Source: an uncultured Actinomycetes bacterium
GTDB taxonomy: Bacteria; Actinomycetota; Actinomycetes; Nanopelagicales; Nanopelagicaceae
Assembly (NCBI GenBank): GCA_903954055.1
Contig: CAJBMC010000156.1
Coordinates: forward strand, 1-39,235
Length of the DNA: 39,235 nucleotides
Reading direction: 5' to 3'
The position numbers and the translations under genes were made by a program. Positions within the stretch are counted from its first letter, which is position 1; each line of letters begins with the position of its first letter. This document shows, piece by piece, positions 16,689 to 23,781 of this stretch. The notes under the pieces are model-generated. The model was given only the letters and a program-made list of their open reading frames with translations, made no database searches and was not told the origin of the DNA.

Positions 16689-17091
16689 GTGTCACCTCAC
16701 TAGAAGCGTTGAGATTGAGGAAGATTGGAGTATCAGATTGCTTCATTCCTAACGCAGCAGCTGCATTAGCAAGGGCATCTGGATCTGCATGATCATCAAT
16801 CTGTCGATTGATTGCATCGCGCTGATCTGCAACTAACTTCGCCTCAACTTTTAACTTTGACAAAGTGAAGGCATCTTGTGCCAACAAGGTATTGATACCC
16901 AAGAGCGCCATAAATCCTGCAACGCTGATTGAGGTCACAAAGATTGCAAAATACTTACGACTTGCCTGTTGCGCGACTGTGACTTGTGGGAAAGCTCCCT
17001 GAATCACCTTCGCCGTTGTCTCGACAACTTGACGCTTTAATCCAGAGGTGAGTGTTGTCGAAATTCCTTTGCGAGCGAGAGCTGTTGCCAT
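16681..17091 (-). CDS. FtsL-like septum protein
   Basis: A 136-residue bitopic protein: basic and polar N-terminus (about 45 residues), one membrane helix (about residues 47-70), and an extracytoplasmic segment rich in charged residues that should form a coiled coil (SKLKVEAKLVADQRDAINRQID), followed by DPDALANAAAALGM, a pattern typical of FtsL/FtsB-type division proteins. It occupies the slot of the poorly conserved FtsL-like gene between rsmH and ftsI (Rv2164c in M. tuberculosis). It overlaps rsmH by one base and ftsI by eight. Assignment relies on topology and position, because sequence conservation is weak in this family. Confidence 0.85.
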   Translation of the reverse strand: MATALARKGISTTLTSGLKRQVVETTAKVIQGAFPQVTVAQQASRKYFAIFVTSISVAGFMALLGINTLLAQDAFTLSKLKVEAKLVADQRDAINRQIDDHADPDALANAAAALGMKQSDTPIFLNLNASSEVTHG

Positions 17092-18032
17092 TATGCGGCC
17101 ACCCTCTCGATTGCGCGCAGTCGTACAGATGCAGCGCGAGAATTTTCAGCAATCTCCGCCTCACTTGGCTTCTCGCTTGAGTTAAAGACGAGTTTGAACT
17201 TCGCTGCATACTCTGGAAGTTCAATCGGTAATTCACGTGGGCTCTTTGAAGTTGAGGCTTCAGCAAATTTCTCTTTAACGATGCGATCTTCGAGTGATTG
17301 GAAAGACATCACAACGACACGTCCGCCGATAACAATTCGATCGAGCGCCTCTGGGATTGCTCGCTCGATTGCTCCGAGTTCATCATTGACGGCGATCCGA
17401 AGCGCCTGGAATGTCCGCTTAGATGGATTGCCACCAGTGCGACGAGTCGCCGCAGGAATGCTCTCCTTCACAAGTGCAGCTAGTTGAACTGTTGAATTCA
17501 TAGGCGAGATAGCTCGCGCTTTCACAATATTTTCGACGATTCGAGTAGCAAATTTCTCTTCGCCGTAGACTCGCAAAATTCGGACGAGCTCTCCAGGTTC
17601 ATAAGTATTTACGATTTCACCGGCTGTGATACCTCGGCTCTGATCCATCCGCATATCTAGCGGAGCATCATGTGAATAAGAGAATCCGCGCACACCTTCA
17701 TCTAGCTGCATCGATGAAACGCCGAGATCGAAAAGCACCCCATTGACATTGGTGAGACCGAAGCTTTCAAGAACTTCAGAGAGCTGGTCAAAGATTGAAT
17801 GTGCTGATTTAAACCGCTCACCAAAACGCGCGAGGCGAGCTCCAGCTTTAGCTAGCGCATCCTTATCGCGATCGATTCCGATAACAGTTAATTGCGAGAA
17901 CTGCTCAAGGAGAGCTTCGCTATGTCCACCAAGGCCAAGAGTTGCATCAATAACTACAGGGTTTTCGGTAGCAAGAATTGCAGGTGCGAGTAGCTCGACG
18001 CATCGATCGCGCATTACTGATATGTGTTGCAT
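17091..18032 (-). CDS. rsmH: 16S rRNA (cytosine(1402)-N4)-methyltransferase RsmH (MraW)
   Basis: SAM-dependent methyltransferase that N4-methylates C1402 in the ribosomal P site. The 313-residue sequence starts HISVMRDRCVELL and contains the SAM loop DATLGLGGHSEALL (about residues 29-42), GVLFDLGVSSMQLDE, DMRMDQS, NPSKRTFQALRIAVNDEL and VMSFQSLEDRIVK, all classic MraW blocks. A GGGGGAG ribosome-binding site lies close upstream of the ATG. It is preceded by a 257-base gap containing a nested inverted repeat and short tandem repeats, which may control expression of rsmH and the operon behind it. Confidence 0.97.
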   Translation of the reverse strand: MQHISVMRDRCVELLAPAILATENPVVIDATLGLGGHSEALLEQFSQLTVIGIDRDKDALAKAGARLARFGERFKSAHSIFDQLSEVLESFGLTNVNGVLFDLGVSSMQLDEGVRGFSYSHDAPLDMRMDQSRGITAGEIVNTYEPGELVRILRVYGEEKFATRIVENIVKARAISPMNSTVQLAALVKESIPAATRRTGGNPSKRTFQALRIAVNDELGAIERAIPEALDRIVIGGRVVVMSFQSLEDRIVKEKFAEASTSKSPRELPIELPEYAAKFKLVFNSSEKPSEAEIAENSRAASVRLRAIERVAA

Positions 18033-18058
18033 CTACTCCCCCACTTCTCACTTACTCG

Positions 18059-18108
18059 TGCCTTTAATGAGCTCTTGCCTGTAATTAACTTTTGCCTTTA
18101 ATGAGTAC
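18059..18108. repeat. Three imperfect 17-bp tandem repeats upstream of rsmH
   Basis: Units start at 18059 (TGCCTTTAATGAGCTCT), 18076 (TGCCTGTAATTAACTTT) and 18093 (TGCCTTTAATGAGTAC). Copies one and three share 13 identical bases; copy two differs in several places. A fourth TGCC begins at 18109 and runs into the outer arm of the inverted-repeat element. They lie about 30-80 bases before the rsmH start codon, within the expected leader. Confidence 0.7.
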
Positions 18109-18112
18109 TGCC

Positions 18113-18223
18113 CACTCATCTCTGGTCACCGCCGGCCGACGGATTTGTTAATCATCGATAGCGGCGTCGGGGAAGAGACGCCGCTGTCGGCCTATTAAGG
18201 TCGGCGGTGGCCACAGATGAGTG
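18113..18223 (-). promoter_or_regulatory. Nested inverted-repeat structure between mraZ and rsmH (possible mraW-type leader RNA)
   Basis: Three stems nest in one element. The outer stem pairs 18113-18133 with 18203-18223 (21 positions, two mismatches). A second stem continues directly, pairing GGCCGAC at 18134-18140 with GTCGGCC at 18186-18192. The apical hairpin pairs AGCGGCGTC (18160-18168) with GACGCCGCT (18177-18185) around an eight-base loop. A 10-base bulge (18193-18202) and a 19-base internal strand (18141-18159) interrupt it. No T-run follows on the transcribed (minus) strand, so it is not a simple terminator. A conserved RNA called the mraW motif has been described upstream of mraW in Actinobacteria; position fits, but membership was not tested. 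A mobile palindromic repeat is the alternative. Confidence 0.55.
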
Positions 18224-18289: not shown

Positions 18290-18721
18290 CTAGAAAAGTC
18301 CCGGAAAAACTTCTTCAGAGACATCAGCAAAACTCTTTTCGCGATCGGCGAGGTATTCAGCCCAGGCACCGCTATCCCAAATTTCAACGCGAGTATTTGC
18401 GCCGATAACAACGCACTCTTTTTCAAGATCTGCATAAGTACGAAGTCCTTGTGGAATCGTGATGCGACCTTGGCGATCAGGAATTTCATCGTGCGCGCCG
18501 GCAAACATCACGCGCTGGTAATCACGAGCGGCTTTAGCTGTCACTGGCGCTTGGCGCAGGGTCTCTGTGATGTGGGCAAATTCAGTTGCAGGAAATACGT
18601 AGAGGCAACGCTCTTGACCCTTGGTAATAACAAGGCCTGGCGAGAGCTCTTCACGGAATTTGGCGGGAAGGATCAAACGCCCCTTCTCATCAAGCTTTGG
18701 CTCGTGAGTTCCAAGAAACAT
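18290..18721 (-). CDS. mraZ: Transcriptional regulator MraZ
   Basis: AbrB-like DNA-binding protein that forms ring oligomers and controls the dcw operon by binding short repeats in its own promoter. The 143-residue sequence contains two tandem half-domains with the family signatures [22 protein letters not shown] and, in the second half, [17 protein letters not shown]. It is the first gene of the leftward dcw operon. The ATG at 18721 is preceded by an AAGGTGG ribosome-binding site. An array of 10-bp G-rich repeats, the expected type of MraZ operator, begins about 45 bases upstream. Confidence 0.97.
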
Positions 18722-18738
18722 TTTTCACCACCTTCCCC

Positions 18739-18766
18739 AAGGTATGAGCGTGATTTCCACGCTCAA
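18739..18766 (-). promoter_or_regulatory. Candidate mraZ (dcw operon) promoter with palindromic spacer
   Basis: TTGAGC (18761-18766) and TACCTT (18739-18744) on the minus strand are 16 bases apart, and the same -10 sequence appears in the candidate ftsZ promoter. The spacer contains a perfect inverted repeat, GAGCGTG/CACGCTC (18746-18752 with 18758-18764, five-base loop), which could be an operator or an RNA hairpin if transcription starts further upstream. The first MraZ-like box starts two bases upstream of the -35. If this is the real promoter, the leader is only about 11 bases. Confidence 0.3.
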
Positions 18767-18767
18767 T

Positions 18768-18847
18768 TCCCCACTTTACACCACTTTCCCCCTTTTTACA
18801 CCACTATTCTCCAAATATTTCCCTTTCTCACCCACCTCCCCCCACCG
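18768..18847 (-). promoter_or_regulatory. MraZ operator: array of 10-bp repeats
   Basis: Read on the minus strand, four adjoining 10-mers end next to the promoter: ATAGTGGTGT (18798-18807), AAAAAGGGGG (18788-18797), AAAGTGGTGT (18778-18787) and AAAGTGGGGA (18768-18777). Weaker units continue upstream in the same register (TATTTGGAGA, GAAAGGGAAA, AGGTGGGTGA, CGGTGGGGGG) to 18847, always with G residues at positions 6-7 or 5-7. Known MraZ boxes are TGGG or AAAGTG direct repeats with about 10-bp spacing upstream of mraZ, which matches the core well. The outer four units are less certain because the region is G-rich overall. Confidence 0.65.
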
Positions 18848-18891: not shown

Positions 18892-18919
18892 AAAAAAACC
18901 CGGCCGATTGGGCCGGGTT
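18892..18919 (-). terminator. Rho-independent terminator after the SOS cassette/DUF3040 gene
   Basis: Perfect nine-base stem AACCCGGCC/GGCCGGGTT (18897-18905 with 18911-18919, five-base loop) followed on the minus strand by a run of T (18892-18898). It lies 19 bases past the DUF3040 stop and insulates the SOS cassette from the mraZ promoter just downstream. Confidence 0.9.
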
Positions 18920-19318: not shown

Positions 19319-20500
19319 TTATGACTTTCCGTCATCTCCATCGGGGGTTGATGGTCGAATCAGCCGTCCTGGCCGGACGCTCGAGCTGCCAAAGCGAGCG
19401 CGGGCCTTATCGATTGCGCTATCTGCATCCCGCCACCCCTTTTCGCGCGAGCCTAGGAGCATCTGTTCATGGGCCGCCTCTTGCAGGTTCTCGAGCGATA
19501 CCGCAACAAGTCGTAATCGAGCGCCATTAATTTTCAAGGCCTTATAAAGGGTACGGACAACCTCGTAGATATCTTGAGTGCTATCGATTGCCAGGGGAAG
19601 AGTCTTGCTGCGATTAATCGTAGTGAAATCTGCGAAACGGACTTTGATTCCGACCGTCTTTGCAAAGAGGCCTCGATCTCGTAAGCGCGCCGTCGCCTTC
19701 TCTGTCATGCGTAAGAACTCGCGGAGAATCTCTTCTGGGTTATCTAAGTCGTATGCAAAAGTCTCTGCATTACTGATGCTCTTATCGGGTTCGTCGTTAC
19801 TGACATCGCGCAGATCTCGACCCCATGCAAGTTCATAGAGCGAAGCTCCTGTGGAATCACCGAGGGCTCGAATGAGAGTCGAACGCGGGGTATTGGCGAT
19901 ATCGCCAATCGTATGAAGTCCTAAGCGATCGAGCGCTTCGCCGGTCTTAGGGCCGACTCCCCACATCGCACCAACAGGAAGCGGATGTAAAAACTCTAAT
20001 AACCGTTCATCTAGAATCTCAAGCATTCCATTGGGTTTGCAATGTTGTGATGCAAGTTTTGCAATGAACTTATTTGATGCGATTCCTACCGAACAGGTAA
20101 TGCCCTCTTGTGCCTGGACCTCATCGCGAATCTTCTGCGCAATTTCGCGACCAGTACCTAATAATTTTAAGGCCCCCGTCACATCGAGAAATGCCTCATC
20201 GAGTGAGATGGGTTCTACCTTCGGTGTGTAGGTAGAGAAAATGTTCATTATACGTTCGGAGATTTCAGAATAGCGATGATGTTCTGGGGCGATAAAGATT
20301 GCTTGCGGCGCCATCCGCTGCGCTCTACCCACTGGCATAGCTGCTCGGATTCCAAATTTACGTGCCGCGTAATTAGCAGAGAGCACTACCCCTCGAGCAC
20401 CTGCGCCAACTACAACTGCTTTACCTCGCAACTCTGGGTGATCGAGCTCTGCTACAGATGCGTAGAACGCATCCATATCTACATGCAGGATTGTGCTCAT
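19319..20500 (-). CDS. dinB: DNA polymerase IV (Y family)
   Basis: Translesion DNA polymerase. The 393-residue sequence has the catalytic start HVDMDAFYASVAELDHPEL, the second acidic motif ISLDEAFLDVTG (about residues 98-109), GIASNKFIAKLASQHCKPNG and the helix-hairpin-helix region WGVGPKTGEALDRLG. In the little finger, EQMLLGSREKGW occupies the place of the usual QLSLF-type clamp-binding motif; the extreme C-terminus has none. The ATG overlaps the upstream polymerase gene by four bases (ATGA), so the two polymerases are translationally coupled and should be co-induced from the LexA-controlled promoter at 24.1 kb. Confidence 0.96.
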   Translation of the reverse strand: MSTILHVDMDAFYASVAELDHPELRGKAVVVGAGARGVVLSANYAARKFGIRAAMPVGRAQRMAPQAIFIAPEHHRYSEISERIMNIFSTYTPKVEPISLDEAFLDVTGALKLLGTGREIAQKIRDEVQAQEGITCSVGIASNKFIAKLASQHCKPNGMLEILDERLLEFLHPLPVGAMWGVGPKTGEALDRLGLHTIGDIANTPRSTLIRALGDSTGASLYELAWGRDLRDVSNDEPDKSISNAETFAYDLDNPEEILREFLRMTEKATARLRDRGLFAKTVGIKVRFADFTTINRSKTLPLAIDSTQDIYEVVRTLYKALKINGARLRLVAVSLENLQEAAHEQMLLGSREKGWRDADSAIDKARARFGSSSVRPGRLIRPSTPDGDDGKS

Positions 20501-23500
20501 ATCGCCACACTACCTTTCTTGAGATTCCATTCTTGATAGGCGCTTCGTAGATCCCAGACACCTGTTGCGCGAATTGAGATTCCACGTTCGCCGGTGCGGC
20601 GAGTAACGCCCCGTACGAGAAATAGTGAGGTCGCATAGAGGGTCTGCGCATATTCGCCGCTACCCGATTGCAGTACATCGGGGAAGAAGGTGGCATCGCT
20701 ACACCCATAACCATCATCGAGAGAGAGGAAGAGAACGCGCTTACCTGAACGCACTGGTGGGGATTGCAATGCGACTTTAACCCCGGCGATAAGAACAGTG
20801 CTATTGCTCCGCTGTTGTAATAAATCACAAGAACGCGTAGCGCCGATGGCGTTGAGAAATTCGGCATATGGTGAAATCAGATGCTCTGAGAGATCCATAC
20901 CGAGACGCGAAAGTTCGTGTGCCATTTTTTCACTACTGGTCATAGCCGGTAGTCCACTCGCCTCTAAGAGCGGTGGCGCAAGTCCAAGTGACATCTGCCC
21001 ACCTGATAACGCTGGCGTAGAGCTCTTCTGTAAATCAGCTAAGTGCAATAACAAATCGCGATGAGTAATTTCATTATTGATATGGAGTGCATCGAGAGCG
21101 CCGGTAAGAATCAAGGTCTCGATTGTCGGCGCAGCAGCACCAGACCTGCGATAGAAATCTGCTAAATCAATATATGGCTGACCTGCTGCAATATTTGCAA
21201 TCTCTCGCTCGCTTGCACCAGAGACTGCCGATAGCGCGATGCGAATTGCCGGCCTATCCCCTGTTAACTCAACTCGATAATCACTACCTGAGTAATTAAT
21301 ATCCAACGGCGCAAGTGGCACGCCCATCTGACGCGCTTCATCAATCATCAACCGCTTGGGGTACATACCCGGATCATGGGTAAGAACGCCTGCGATAAAT
21401 GCCGCAGGGTAATGAGTCTTTAACCATGCAGATTGATAGGTAGGTAAGGCAAATGCGGCAGCGTGTGCTTTACAGAAACCGAAGGATGCAAATGCGCGCA
21501 AAATTTCCCAGACTGTTGTAATTGTTGAAAGCTCGTAGCCATTTTCAGTTGCTGCAGGGAAGAACCAATCGCAGACCTCTTGCTGTCCTTCTTTACTGCC
21601 GAGCGCGCGACGCTTCTCATCGCCTGCCGCTAATGAGATACCTGTCATCACAGAGATAATCGATATGACCTGTTCGTGAAAGACGACAACACCTTCAGTC
21701 TCAGCCAATATCGGGGCGAGAGTGGGATGAATTAACTGTGGGGCGGTAAAGCCACCACGGGCCTCAAGGAAGGGGCGAATCATGTCGCTCTTAACTGGCC
21801 CTGGTCGAAAGAGCGAGATATCGATGACGAGATCATTAAAGGTGCGCGGCTGTAGCTTGCCGACGAGTTCGCGTTGTCCTGGGCTCTCGATCTGAAAGAG
21901 ACCGAAGGTCTGCGTTGATTGAATCAATTGATATGTAGCAGGATCATCGAGCGGAACAGCATCGATATCGAACTCTGGATCTGCAGTACGTCTAATCTCT
22001 TCGACGGCGTGAGCGATAGCAGATTGCATACGCACACCTAAGACATCGAGCTTTAGTAATCCAATATCTTCGACATCATCTTTATCAAATTCGAGCATTG
22101 GATATCCGCCCGCGCTGATCTGTAGCGGAGTGCGATCAAGCAAGGTCGCATCTGAGAGAGCGATGGCACAGGGATGCATTGCAAGGTGGCGCGGTAGACC
22201 ATCGAGGCGTTGCGCCATTGCAATAGTCATCGCCATCAAGGGTGCAGATGTATTGAGCGACTTTAACTCTGGCAGCGATGCAAGCGCTGCCTCAATATTG
22301 GCGGCGCGAATATGGGGCATCGACTTTGCGAGAAGATCAATCTCGACTGCAGGGAGGCCGAGCGCAGCGCCAGCATCACGAATTGCATGGCGTGCACGGT
22401 AGGTCTCAACCATCGCAACCGTGGCACAGCGAGAGATCGCGCTAGGTACAGTAAAAGATGGCGCTCCATATCGAGCAAAGGTGGCGTCGTAAATCTCTAA
22501 CCGTCGTGCGGATTCGACATCGATATCGATATCAGGAAGTGCGCGACGTAGCGGTGAACAGAAACGTTCCATCAAGAGGCCATGTTCGATGGGATCAACG
22601 CCAGATATTCCAAGTAAGTGACAGATGAGAGAACCGGCGCCGGAACCACGAGCTGCAACGCGGATGCCTTTTTCGCGCGCCATAGCGGTGATATCGGCAA
22701 CGGTGAGAAAGTAGGACTCGAAGCCAAGTGTTGCCACCGTCGCAAGTTCATCATCAAGCCGGGCGCGTGCAGTGCGAATGCGATCGCTATCGGTATAACG
22801 CCAATGCAACCCTGATTCGGTACGTTCGCGTAATACCCGCCGCATATCTGCAGCGTTAGCTGCCCCCACCACATCTGCCTCAGGGAGATGAACGTCGCCT
22901 AAACCGATATCGCGCTGCGGTGATAATAATGATCGCTCTGCCCATTCGCGGGTCTTCTTTAATAATAATCGTGGTGAACCTTCGCCGGCAGCGCGCGCAA
23001 TCTCTGCCGCAAGAGCCTGCATCTCACCGCTACTCTTCAAAAATCCCTCTGCATTACGGCGTTCGAGATGGCGTCGATCGAGTGGAACTAATTGCCGCGC
23101 ACAATCGAGAATATCGGCTACTGGACCATCGCTGCGATCGCGCATGCGTACAGCATTGGTAATTACTGCATCAATATCGTGTTCGCGAGCAAAGACCAAT
23201 GACCTTGCTGCATGAGCTGTCGAGCGCGCTCCATTACCGGCGACTAAATGTGAGACACATTCGATAGCGTGGTCAGCAAAGTAGGGGCGGGTCTTATTGA
23301 AGATATCCATTGCCATATCGAAGCGATGAAGTGCAATCGCCTCAGATACTGGCGACTCAGGGCCATGTAATAAATAGAGCTGCGTGCTGTGCTCGGAGAA
23401 TTTTTCGAGGATATCCATAGTGATGACTGGAATGCGATCTGGTGAGTTAAAGGTAATACCGCGGTAGAGGTGCATGAGATTGCGATATCCCCCATCGCTG

Positions 23501-23781
23501 CCAGCGAGAATTGTGACGCGAGGAAAATTTTTTCGATCTGATGCGATACCTACAGATTCAGAGTTAATGAGATCGATCTGAAGGTTGATGCCGATAATCG
23601 GCGCGATGCCGTATTGGAGACAACTCTTTGCAAAGCGAATCGTGCCGGCAAATGAATCGCGATCAGTCAAGCCAATCGCAGGCATCTCAAATTCAGCAGC
23701 GCGCGCAACTAAGTCGTGCGGCATTGTTGTGCCGTACTTAAATGAGTATGCACTTGTAGTGCGGAGATGGATAAAGCTCAT
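20497..23781 (-). CDS. dnaE2: Second DnaE-type DNA polymerase III alpha subunit (DnaE2/ImuC-like)
   Basis: C-family polymerase alpha subunit of 1094 residues. Order: PHP domain (1-about 270), polymerase palm with ARGSGAGSLICHLLGISGVDP and the catalytic ALPDIDIDVESARR, thumb/fingers with FQIESPGQRELVGKLQPR and VVFHEQVISI, a helix-hairpin-helix region, a QMSLGL sequence at about 929-934 where the beta-clamp motif is expected, and a C-terminal OB fold (VLIAGVKVAL). The PHP metal ligands are altered: HLR instead of HLH at the start, TDRD instead of TDHD/TDHG, and GINL where an acidic residue is usual, so proofreading by this domain is unlikely. Pairing with dinB and DUF6504 under a LexA box supports an error-prone role. 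No imuA or imuB is present here. Confidence 0.93.
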   Translation of the reverse strand: MSFIHLRTTSAYSFKYGTTMPHDLVARAAEFEMPAIGLTDRDSFAGTIRFAKSCLQYGIAPIIGINLQIDLINSESVGIASDRKNFPRVTILAGSDGGYRNLMHLYRGITFNSPDRIPVITMDILEKFSEHSTQLYLLHGPESPVSEAIALHRFDMAMDIFNKTRPYFADHAIECVSHLVAGNGARSTAHAARSLVFAREHDIDAVITNAVRMRDRSDGPVADILDCARQLVPLDRRHLERRNAEGFLKSSGEMQALAAEIARAAGEGSPRLLLKKTREWAERSLLSPQRDIGLGDVHLPEADVVGAANAADMRRVLRERTESGLHWRYTDSDRIRTARARLDDELATVATLGFESYFLTVADITAMAREKGIRVAARGSGAGSLICHLLGISGVDPIEHGLLMERFCSPLRRALPDIDIDVESARRLEIYDATFARYGAPSFTVPSAISRCATVAMVETYRARHAIRDAGAALGLPAVEIDLLAKSMPHIRAANIEAALASLPELKSLNTSAPLMAMTIAMAQRLDGLPRHLAMHPCAIALSDATLLDRTPLQISAGGYPMLEFDKDDVEDIGLLKLDVLGVRMQSAIAHAVEEIRRTADPEFDIDAVPLDDPATYQLIQSTQTFGLFQIESPGQRELVGKLQPRTFNDLVIDISLFRPGPVKSDMIRPFLEARGGFTAPQLIHPTLAPILAETEGVVVFHEQVISIISVMTGISLAAGDEKRRALGSKEGQQEVCDWFFPAATENGYELSTITTVWEILRAFASFGFCKAHAAAFALPTYQSAWLKTHYPAAFIAGVLTHDPGMYPKRLMIDEARQMGVPLAPLDINYSGSDYRVELTGDRPAIRIALSAVSGASEREIANIAAGQPYIDLADFYRRSGAAAPTIETLILTGALDALHINNEITHRDLLLHLADLQKSSTPALSGGQMSLGLAPPLLEASGLPAMTSSEKMAHELSRLGMDLSEHLISPYAEFLNAIGATRSCDLLQQRSNSTVLIAGVKVALQSPPVRSGKRVLFLSLDDGYGCSDATFFPDVLQSGSGEYAQTLYATSLFLVRGVTRRTGERGISIRATGVWDLRSAYQEWNLKKGSVAI

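Follow-up and report, generated by a model that had tools for sequence, protein, structure and literature searches.

The stretch of DNA analysed here (the window; 39,235 nucleotides) comes from a 1.39-Mb genome in 162 contigs of an uncultured bacterium of the family Nanopelagicaceae. It contains the start of a dcw cluster, in which mraZ and rsmH (also called mraW) are followed by the next dcw genes. An rsmH orthologue is present in 149 of 150 genomes of the phylum, and RsmH was detected in 58 of 60 relatives. The gap between mraZ and rsmH is 257 nt long and contains a structured element (Table 1). Since both genes lie on the minus strand, the RNA of the element is the minus strand.

Table 1. 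Features of the mraZ-rsmH region in the window
Feature	Position	Strand	Basis and remarks
rsmH (mraW), 16S rRNA m4C1402 methyltransferase	17091-18032	minus	ORF; first gene downstream of the element
rsmH Shine-Dalgarno GGGGGAG	18036-18042	minus	7-nt loop complement including one G-U
mraW-like structured RNA element, whole	18113-18223	minus	fold, RF01746 alignment, model R1, covariation
Inner, middle and outer stems, 3' arms	18113-18140	minus	fold and alignment
Apical 9-bp hairpin AGCGGCGUC-UCUUCCCC-GACGCCGCU	18160-18185	minus	both-sided changes in 6/9 pairs
Invariant loop CUUCCCC	18169-18175	minus	proposed partner of the rsmH Shine-Dalgarno
7-bp inner stem GGCCGAC, 5' arm	18186-18192	minus	pairs with 18134-18140; sub-clade specific
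Conserved stem UGG-C-CACCGCCG, 5' arm	18202-18213	minus	pairs with 18123-18125 and 18127-18134
Outer 9-bp stem, 5' arm	18215-18223	minus	pairs with 18113-18121; compensatory changes
mraZ	18290-18721	minus	ORF; upstream of the element, same orientation, same order in relatives

On the minus strand the outer stem consists of 9 bp, a mismatch, a UGG/CCA pairing, another mismatch and 8 bp. The 7-bp inner stem has one base in common with it and occurs only in the sub-clade to which the window belongs; elsewhere among the relatives the sequence at this place is unpaired. The apical hairpin closes a loop of 8 nt, UCUUCCCC. This anatomy of outer stem, 7-bp inner stem and 9-bp hairpin had been recognised in an initial annotation of the sequence and is confirmed by our analysis, the outer stem being measured here as 22 positions; the position in the mraZ-rsmH gap, in the leader of rsmH, was also given correctly. 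The linker between the element and the rsmH Shine-Dalgarno (SD) sequence (18043-18112, minus strand) carries imperfect repeats of about 20 nt (CTCATTAAAGGCA and similar), none of which were seen in relatives and which lengthen it beyond the linkers of most of them.

The minus-strand fold of the element has a free energy of −63.7 kcal/mol as compared to −31.0 ± 3.0 kcal/mol for 200 dinucleotide shuffles (z −10.8), and 0/200 shuffles are as stable; for the plus strand z is −9.8. Among 7,826 stretches of 111 nt taken from both strands of the window the element is the most stable one (−69.7 kcal/mol), with a margin of about 19 kcal/mol over the next (−50.4 kcal/mol), which bears out its earlier description as exceptionally structured. 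No U-run follows the element and the terminator scan of the gap does not call it, in agreement with the lack of a terminator T-run noted before. The initial annotation had also proposed a search for scattered copies as a sign of a repeat family. Both DNA search and covariance model find one copy in the genome; the plus-strand covariance-model match at the same place is the other strand of the palindrome.

The element is located between mraZ and rsmH in 25/25 same-genus loci that have a complete gap. Same-genus loci truncated on the mraZ side carry it as well, except L012, where the contig ends inside the element. Outside the element the gap is not conserved among relatives. In a MAFFT alignment of 23 sequences, not fitted to structure, compensatory changes occur in 12 of 31 pairs. 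The alignment A3, which covers 48 species of the family, was made to follow the structure of the model, and its counts are biased toward that structure; it contains both-sided changes in 20/31 pairs as compared to 11.2 in shuffles, and 154 compensatory cells as compared to 41. Paired cells in A3 amount to 96.1%, against 84.4% when shuffled, a control that ignores relatedness, and at most 52% when the partner strand is slid, a control that preserves it. A3 was used instead of a previous alignment (A2), which was discarded because the palindrome had matched on both strands and A2 mixed them. The conserved stem UGG-C-CACCGCCG is mostly invariant, with compensatory changes from CG to UA, and several stem positions (GG/CC, CA/UG) are the same in 48/48 species. 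Loss of pairing in close relatives had been considered as the observation that would speak against the element; pairing is instead kept, with compensatory changes. This is a genuine RNA structure.

The initial annotation left a choice between the actinobacterial mraW leader RNA, a new regulatory RNA controlling most of the dcw operon, and a mobile palindromic repeat, and suggested a covariance-model comparison with Rfam. Out of 4,227 Rfam families searched with an E-value threshold, the best match is RF01746, the mraW RNA (minus strand, 25.3 bits, E 0.0033). At the gathering threshold Rfam gives no match in the window; for RF01746 this cut-off is 50 bits, which is a curation threshold and no biological feature. 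The motif was described by Weinberg et al. 2010, whose table of candidates lists mraW for Actinomycetales (PMC2864571). The element resembles RF01746 in its place upstream of mraW/rsmH in an actinobacterium, in its architecture with covarying stems, in the terminal loop CUUCCCC and in the UGGCC...GACC stem, and it differs from it in an outer stem lower in GC and in the extra 7-bp inner stem of the window's sub-clade. Agreement is over the full length, the alignment spanning positions 1-107 of the model both in the window and in each of the 8 genus loci tested, and in 8 relatives RF01746 is found at the same place with 23-40 bits, below the 50-bit cut-off.

The comparison also works in the opposite direction. 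A covariance model built from genus sequences alone, without RF01746 (R1), scores 104 bits on the window's element and recovers RF01746 loci of Kineosporia, Actinokineospora and other families of the class with E-values of 4e-10 to 1e-5. In Kineosporia (L142) R1 matches 1237-1338 and RF01746 1234-1344, and in Actinokineospora (L199) the two models match at the same place. Of the 297 class genomes covered by a large search, 245 have an RF01746 match, which lies above the cut-off in 84. The strict filters of that search miss the element in the window's own genome, where a search with permissive filters finds it. The score is 49.8 bits in a Nanopelagicales MAG (L143) and rises to 80 elsewhere in the class, and every genome above the cut-off in a phylum-wide sample belongs to the class. 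Because of the full-length alignment to RF01746, the reciprocal model matches and the same synteny, we conclude that the element is almost certainly the Nanopelagicales form of mraW RNA, and because of its score under the curated cut-off it is filed as a divergent member. Thus the mraW leader option is supported by alignment from end to end, strand, place, R1 reciprocity and synteny, homology to RF01746 rules out an unrelated new regulatory RNA, and single copy and fixed position rule out a mobile palindromic repeat. As judged from sequence, only rsmH, the first downstream gene, is implicated out of the dcw operon.

Regarding the transcription of the element, there are 9 relatives in which 3 nt or fewer separate the mraZ stop codon from the outer stem, or in which the two overlap by one base. 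No promoter fits between them, so that the element is intercistronic in these 9 species and its RNA is co-transcribed with the end of mraZ. A scan of the gap for terminators and for sigma-70-type promoters found no promoter-like or terminator-like site. Start sites of mraW have been mapped in two Corynebacterium species: that of C. glutamicum lies inside the motif, 16 nt from its 3' end (PMC3890552), and that of C. diphtheriae lies beyond it on the downstream side (PMC5784534), and therefore some mraW transcripts there are without the element. Lineages other than Nanopelagicales may differ in how the element is transcribed. Upstream of mraZ a sequence is repeated four times in direct orientation with a period of 10 nt (AGTGGTGTAA AAAGGGGGAA AGTGGTGTAA AGTGGGGAAT; 18766-18805, minus strand), an array that is kept in relatives and has a similar form class-wide; the repeats look like MraZ operator boxes. 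Further upstream, a good intrinsic terminator with a 9-bp stem and a T-run (18897-18919, minus strand) closes the preceding unit, and the dcw transcript probably starts after it.

The loop sequence CUUCCCC does not vary among the relatives, and the consensus of RF01746 conserves it too. When its complement was sought in the last ~50 nt before rsmH, a 7-nt match with the SD sequence was found in 57 of 69 species of the family and a match of at least 6 nt in 67 of 69 (16 genera), the members without a match being L254 and L256. GGGGGAG and GGGGAAG are the two forms of the SD that appear repeatedly in different genera, and the loop can pair with either. The loop letters can be arranged in 21 ways; the true order yields 57 full matches, more than any other, and the runner-up yields 43. 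Of 314 genes in a 400-kb portion of a relative's genome, 3-5 have such an SD, the number varying with the search window, and rsmH is one of these genes; about 1-3% of other genes have a loop-complementary SD. The window's own genome contains 15 GGGGGAG sites before an ATG. It is important to note that the anti-SD resembles the loop, and thus any G-rich SD matches the loop partly, and that the loop never varies, so that true covariation with the SD cannot be seen. The median duplex energy is −11.8 kcal/mol for loop:SD and −12.1 kcal/mol for anti-SD:SD, where we take the anti-SD to be the canonical sequence; the closeness of these values makes competition plausible. Across relatives, 22-84 nt separate the element from rsmH, which seems to be enough for the linker to reach back along the stem.

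Outside the family the situation is different. We compared loop and rsmH leader in about 80 loci from the other families of the class; the loop is equally conserved there, but its match to the leader is not above shuffles. Pairing of the loop with the SD is thereby rejected as a class-wide rule, and it cannot explain the class-wide conservation of the loop. Either the SD contact would be an adaptation of the family on top of an older function of the loop, or the true partner of the loop would be another molecule. The loop complement is also not unique to rsmH within the genus, since the mraZ leader contains GGGGAAG (18732-18738, minus strand), a perfect complement that is identical in 22/22 species of the genus. 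As a class-wide partner the mraZ leader is rejected, GGGGAAG being found only in the genus and some close kin; mraZ leaders of other families have ordinary GGGAGGT-type sites. The loop might serve in Nanopelagicaceae as an anti-Shine-Dalgarno sequence for the ribosome binding sites (RBS) of both rsmH and mraZ and tune the translation of both, which we find unlikely.

We propose the following mechanism for the element. The outer stem would display the apical hairpin with the loop CUUCCCC, and the loop would pair with the G-rich SD of rsmH (GGGGGAG/GGGGAAG) to form a long-range pseudoknot. The pseudoknot would compete with the anti-SD of the ribosome and in this way restrain the translation of rsmH. 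Opening of the structure would release it, and candidate triggers are a ribosome ending mraZ translation beside the outer stem or a bound factor. The analysis establishes the homology, the covarying structure, the position, the single copy and the complementarity with its specificity within the family; that the pairing forms, that it controls translation and what triggers it are inferred, and we put this mechanism forward tentatively, as slightly less likely than not. The statement as a whole, that a form of mraW RNA (RF01746) restrains rsmH by a loop-SD pseudoknot, is in our view evenly poised.

A different role of the loop would be to bind, together with the UGGCC/GACC stem, a protein or RNA acting in trans, in which case SD complementarity would be secondary or a by-product of a G-rich RBS. 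Conservation of the loop throughout the class, where SD pairing is not above chance, favours such a factor, and the stem positions that are invariant in all 48 species exceed the needs of pairing. However, no candidate partner was found. In addition, no permutation of the loop letters matches the rsmH SD as well as the loop itself does, and few other genes in the genome have such an SD. A trans factor is possible but somewhat doubtful. The element could also stabilise or mark the boundary between the mraZ and rsmH cistrons, as an RNase site or a decay barrier, acting by coupling of the two genes or by mRNA processing and setting different levels of their proteins. The outer stem abutting the mraZ stop codon in 9 relatives, the Corynebacterium 5' ends inside or after the motif (PMC3890552, PMC5784534) and the lack of a terminator are all consistent with processing or coupling, but a decay barrier needs neither an invariant loop nor invariant stem bases, and we regard this role as rather unlikely.

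The two remaining explanations have much less in their favour. A near-perfect palindrome of ~110 nt would be expected of a mobile repeat or an inactive terminator. Against this are the single copy, the fixed place in complete relatives, the class-wide family, the compensatory changes and the missing T-run after the hairpin, which together leave practically no probability for either. The 5' arm of the window's element also contains CACCGCC, presumably the 16S rRNA sequence around C1402, and the element might thus mimic the target of RsmH, allowing RsmH to repress its own mRNA. In relatives this stretch, which is base-paired, varies freely, becoming CACUGCC, CAUCGCC, CACUACC and others, with compensating changes in the opposite arm; the sequence as such is not retained, and for this reason we reject mimicry as very improbable.

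Among known systems, UpsM of Rhodobacter sphaeroides is another structured RNA from a dcw leader region. UpsM lies upstream of mraZ and ends in a Rho-independent terminator, whereas our element lies in the mraZ-rsmH gap and has none; UpsM has been proposed to be a trans-acting sRNA and is confined to Rhodobacteraceae (PMC5089854). The proposed hiding of the RBS by leader structure is shared with SD-sequestering leaders such as translational riboswitches and RNA thermometers, from which the element would differ by using a loop-SD pseudoknot and by having no known ligand or temperature sensor. For all the Rfam-predicted leaders of one study, mraW included, the RBS has been reported to be at least partly sequestered in the predicted fold (PMC3890552); the loop is not named there, and the observation is compatible with our proposal. 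The later literature that we found names mraW RNA merely as a predicted element and gives no mechanism, and it demonstrates cis-regulation of the downstream operon for no member. The complementarity of loop and SD in Nanopelagicaceae appears to be the new point, distinguishing the family from RF01746 elsewhere, although a prior report is possible.

Our results extend mraW RNA, with the near certainty given above, to freshwater Nanopelagicales, where the Rfam cut-off misses the family. It is the AT-rich leaders of this order that make the loop-SD complementarity visible. An orphan motif beside essential division genes would thereby gain a candidate mechanism open to a two-mutation experiment.

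We also noticed that 26 of 47 Streptomyces/Kitasatospora loci (including L135 and L141) are without CTTCCCC within 420 nt upstream of rsmH, a distance within which all 32 other named loci have it; mraW RNA seems to be lost in part of this group. Three MAGs titled Bifidobacterium breve (L122, L133 and L173) have an RsmH 61-74% identical to that of the window and carry the Nanopelagicales-type mraZ leader, and their names look wrong. Beside the dcw cluster two minus-strand ORFs overlap at 19319-23781, one of them DNA polymerase IV-like and the other resembling the error-prone DnaE alpha subunit, as judged by eye.
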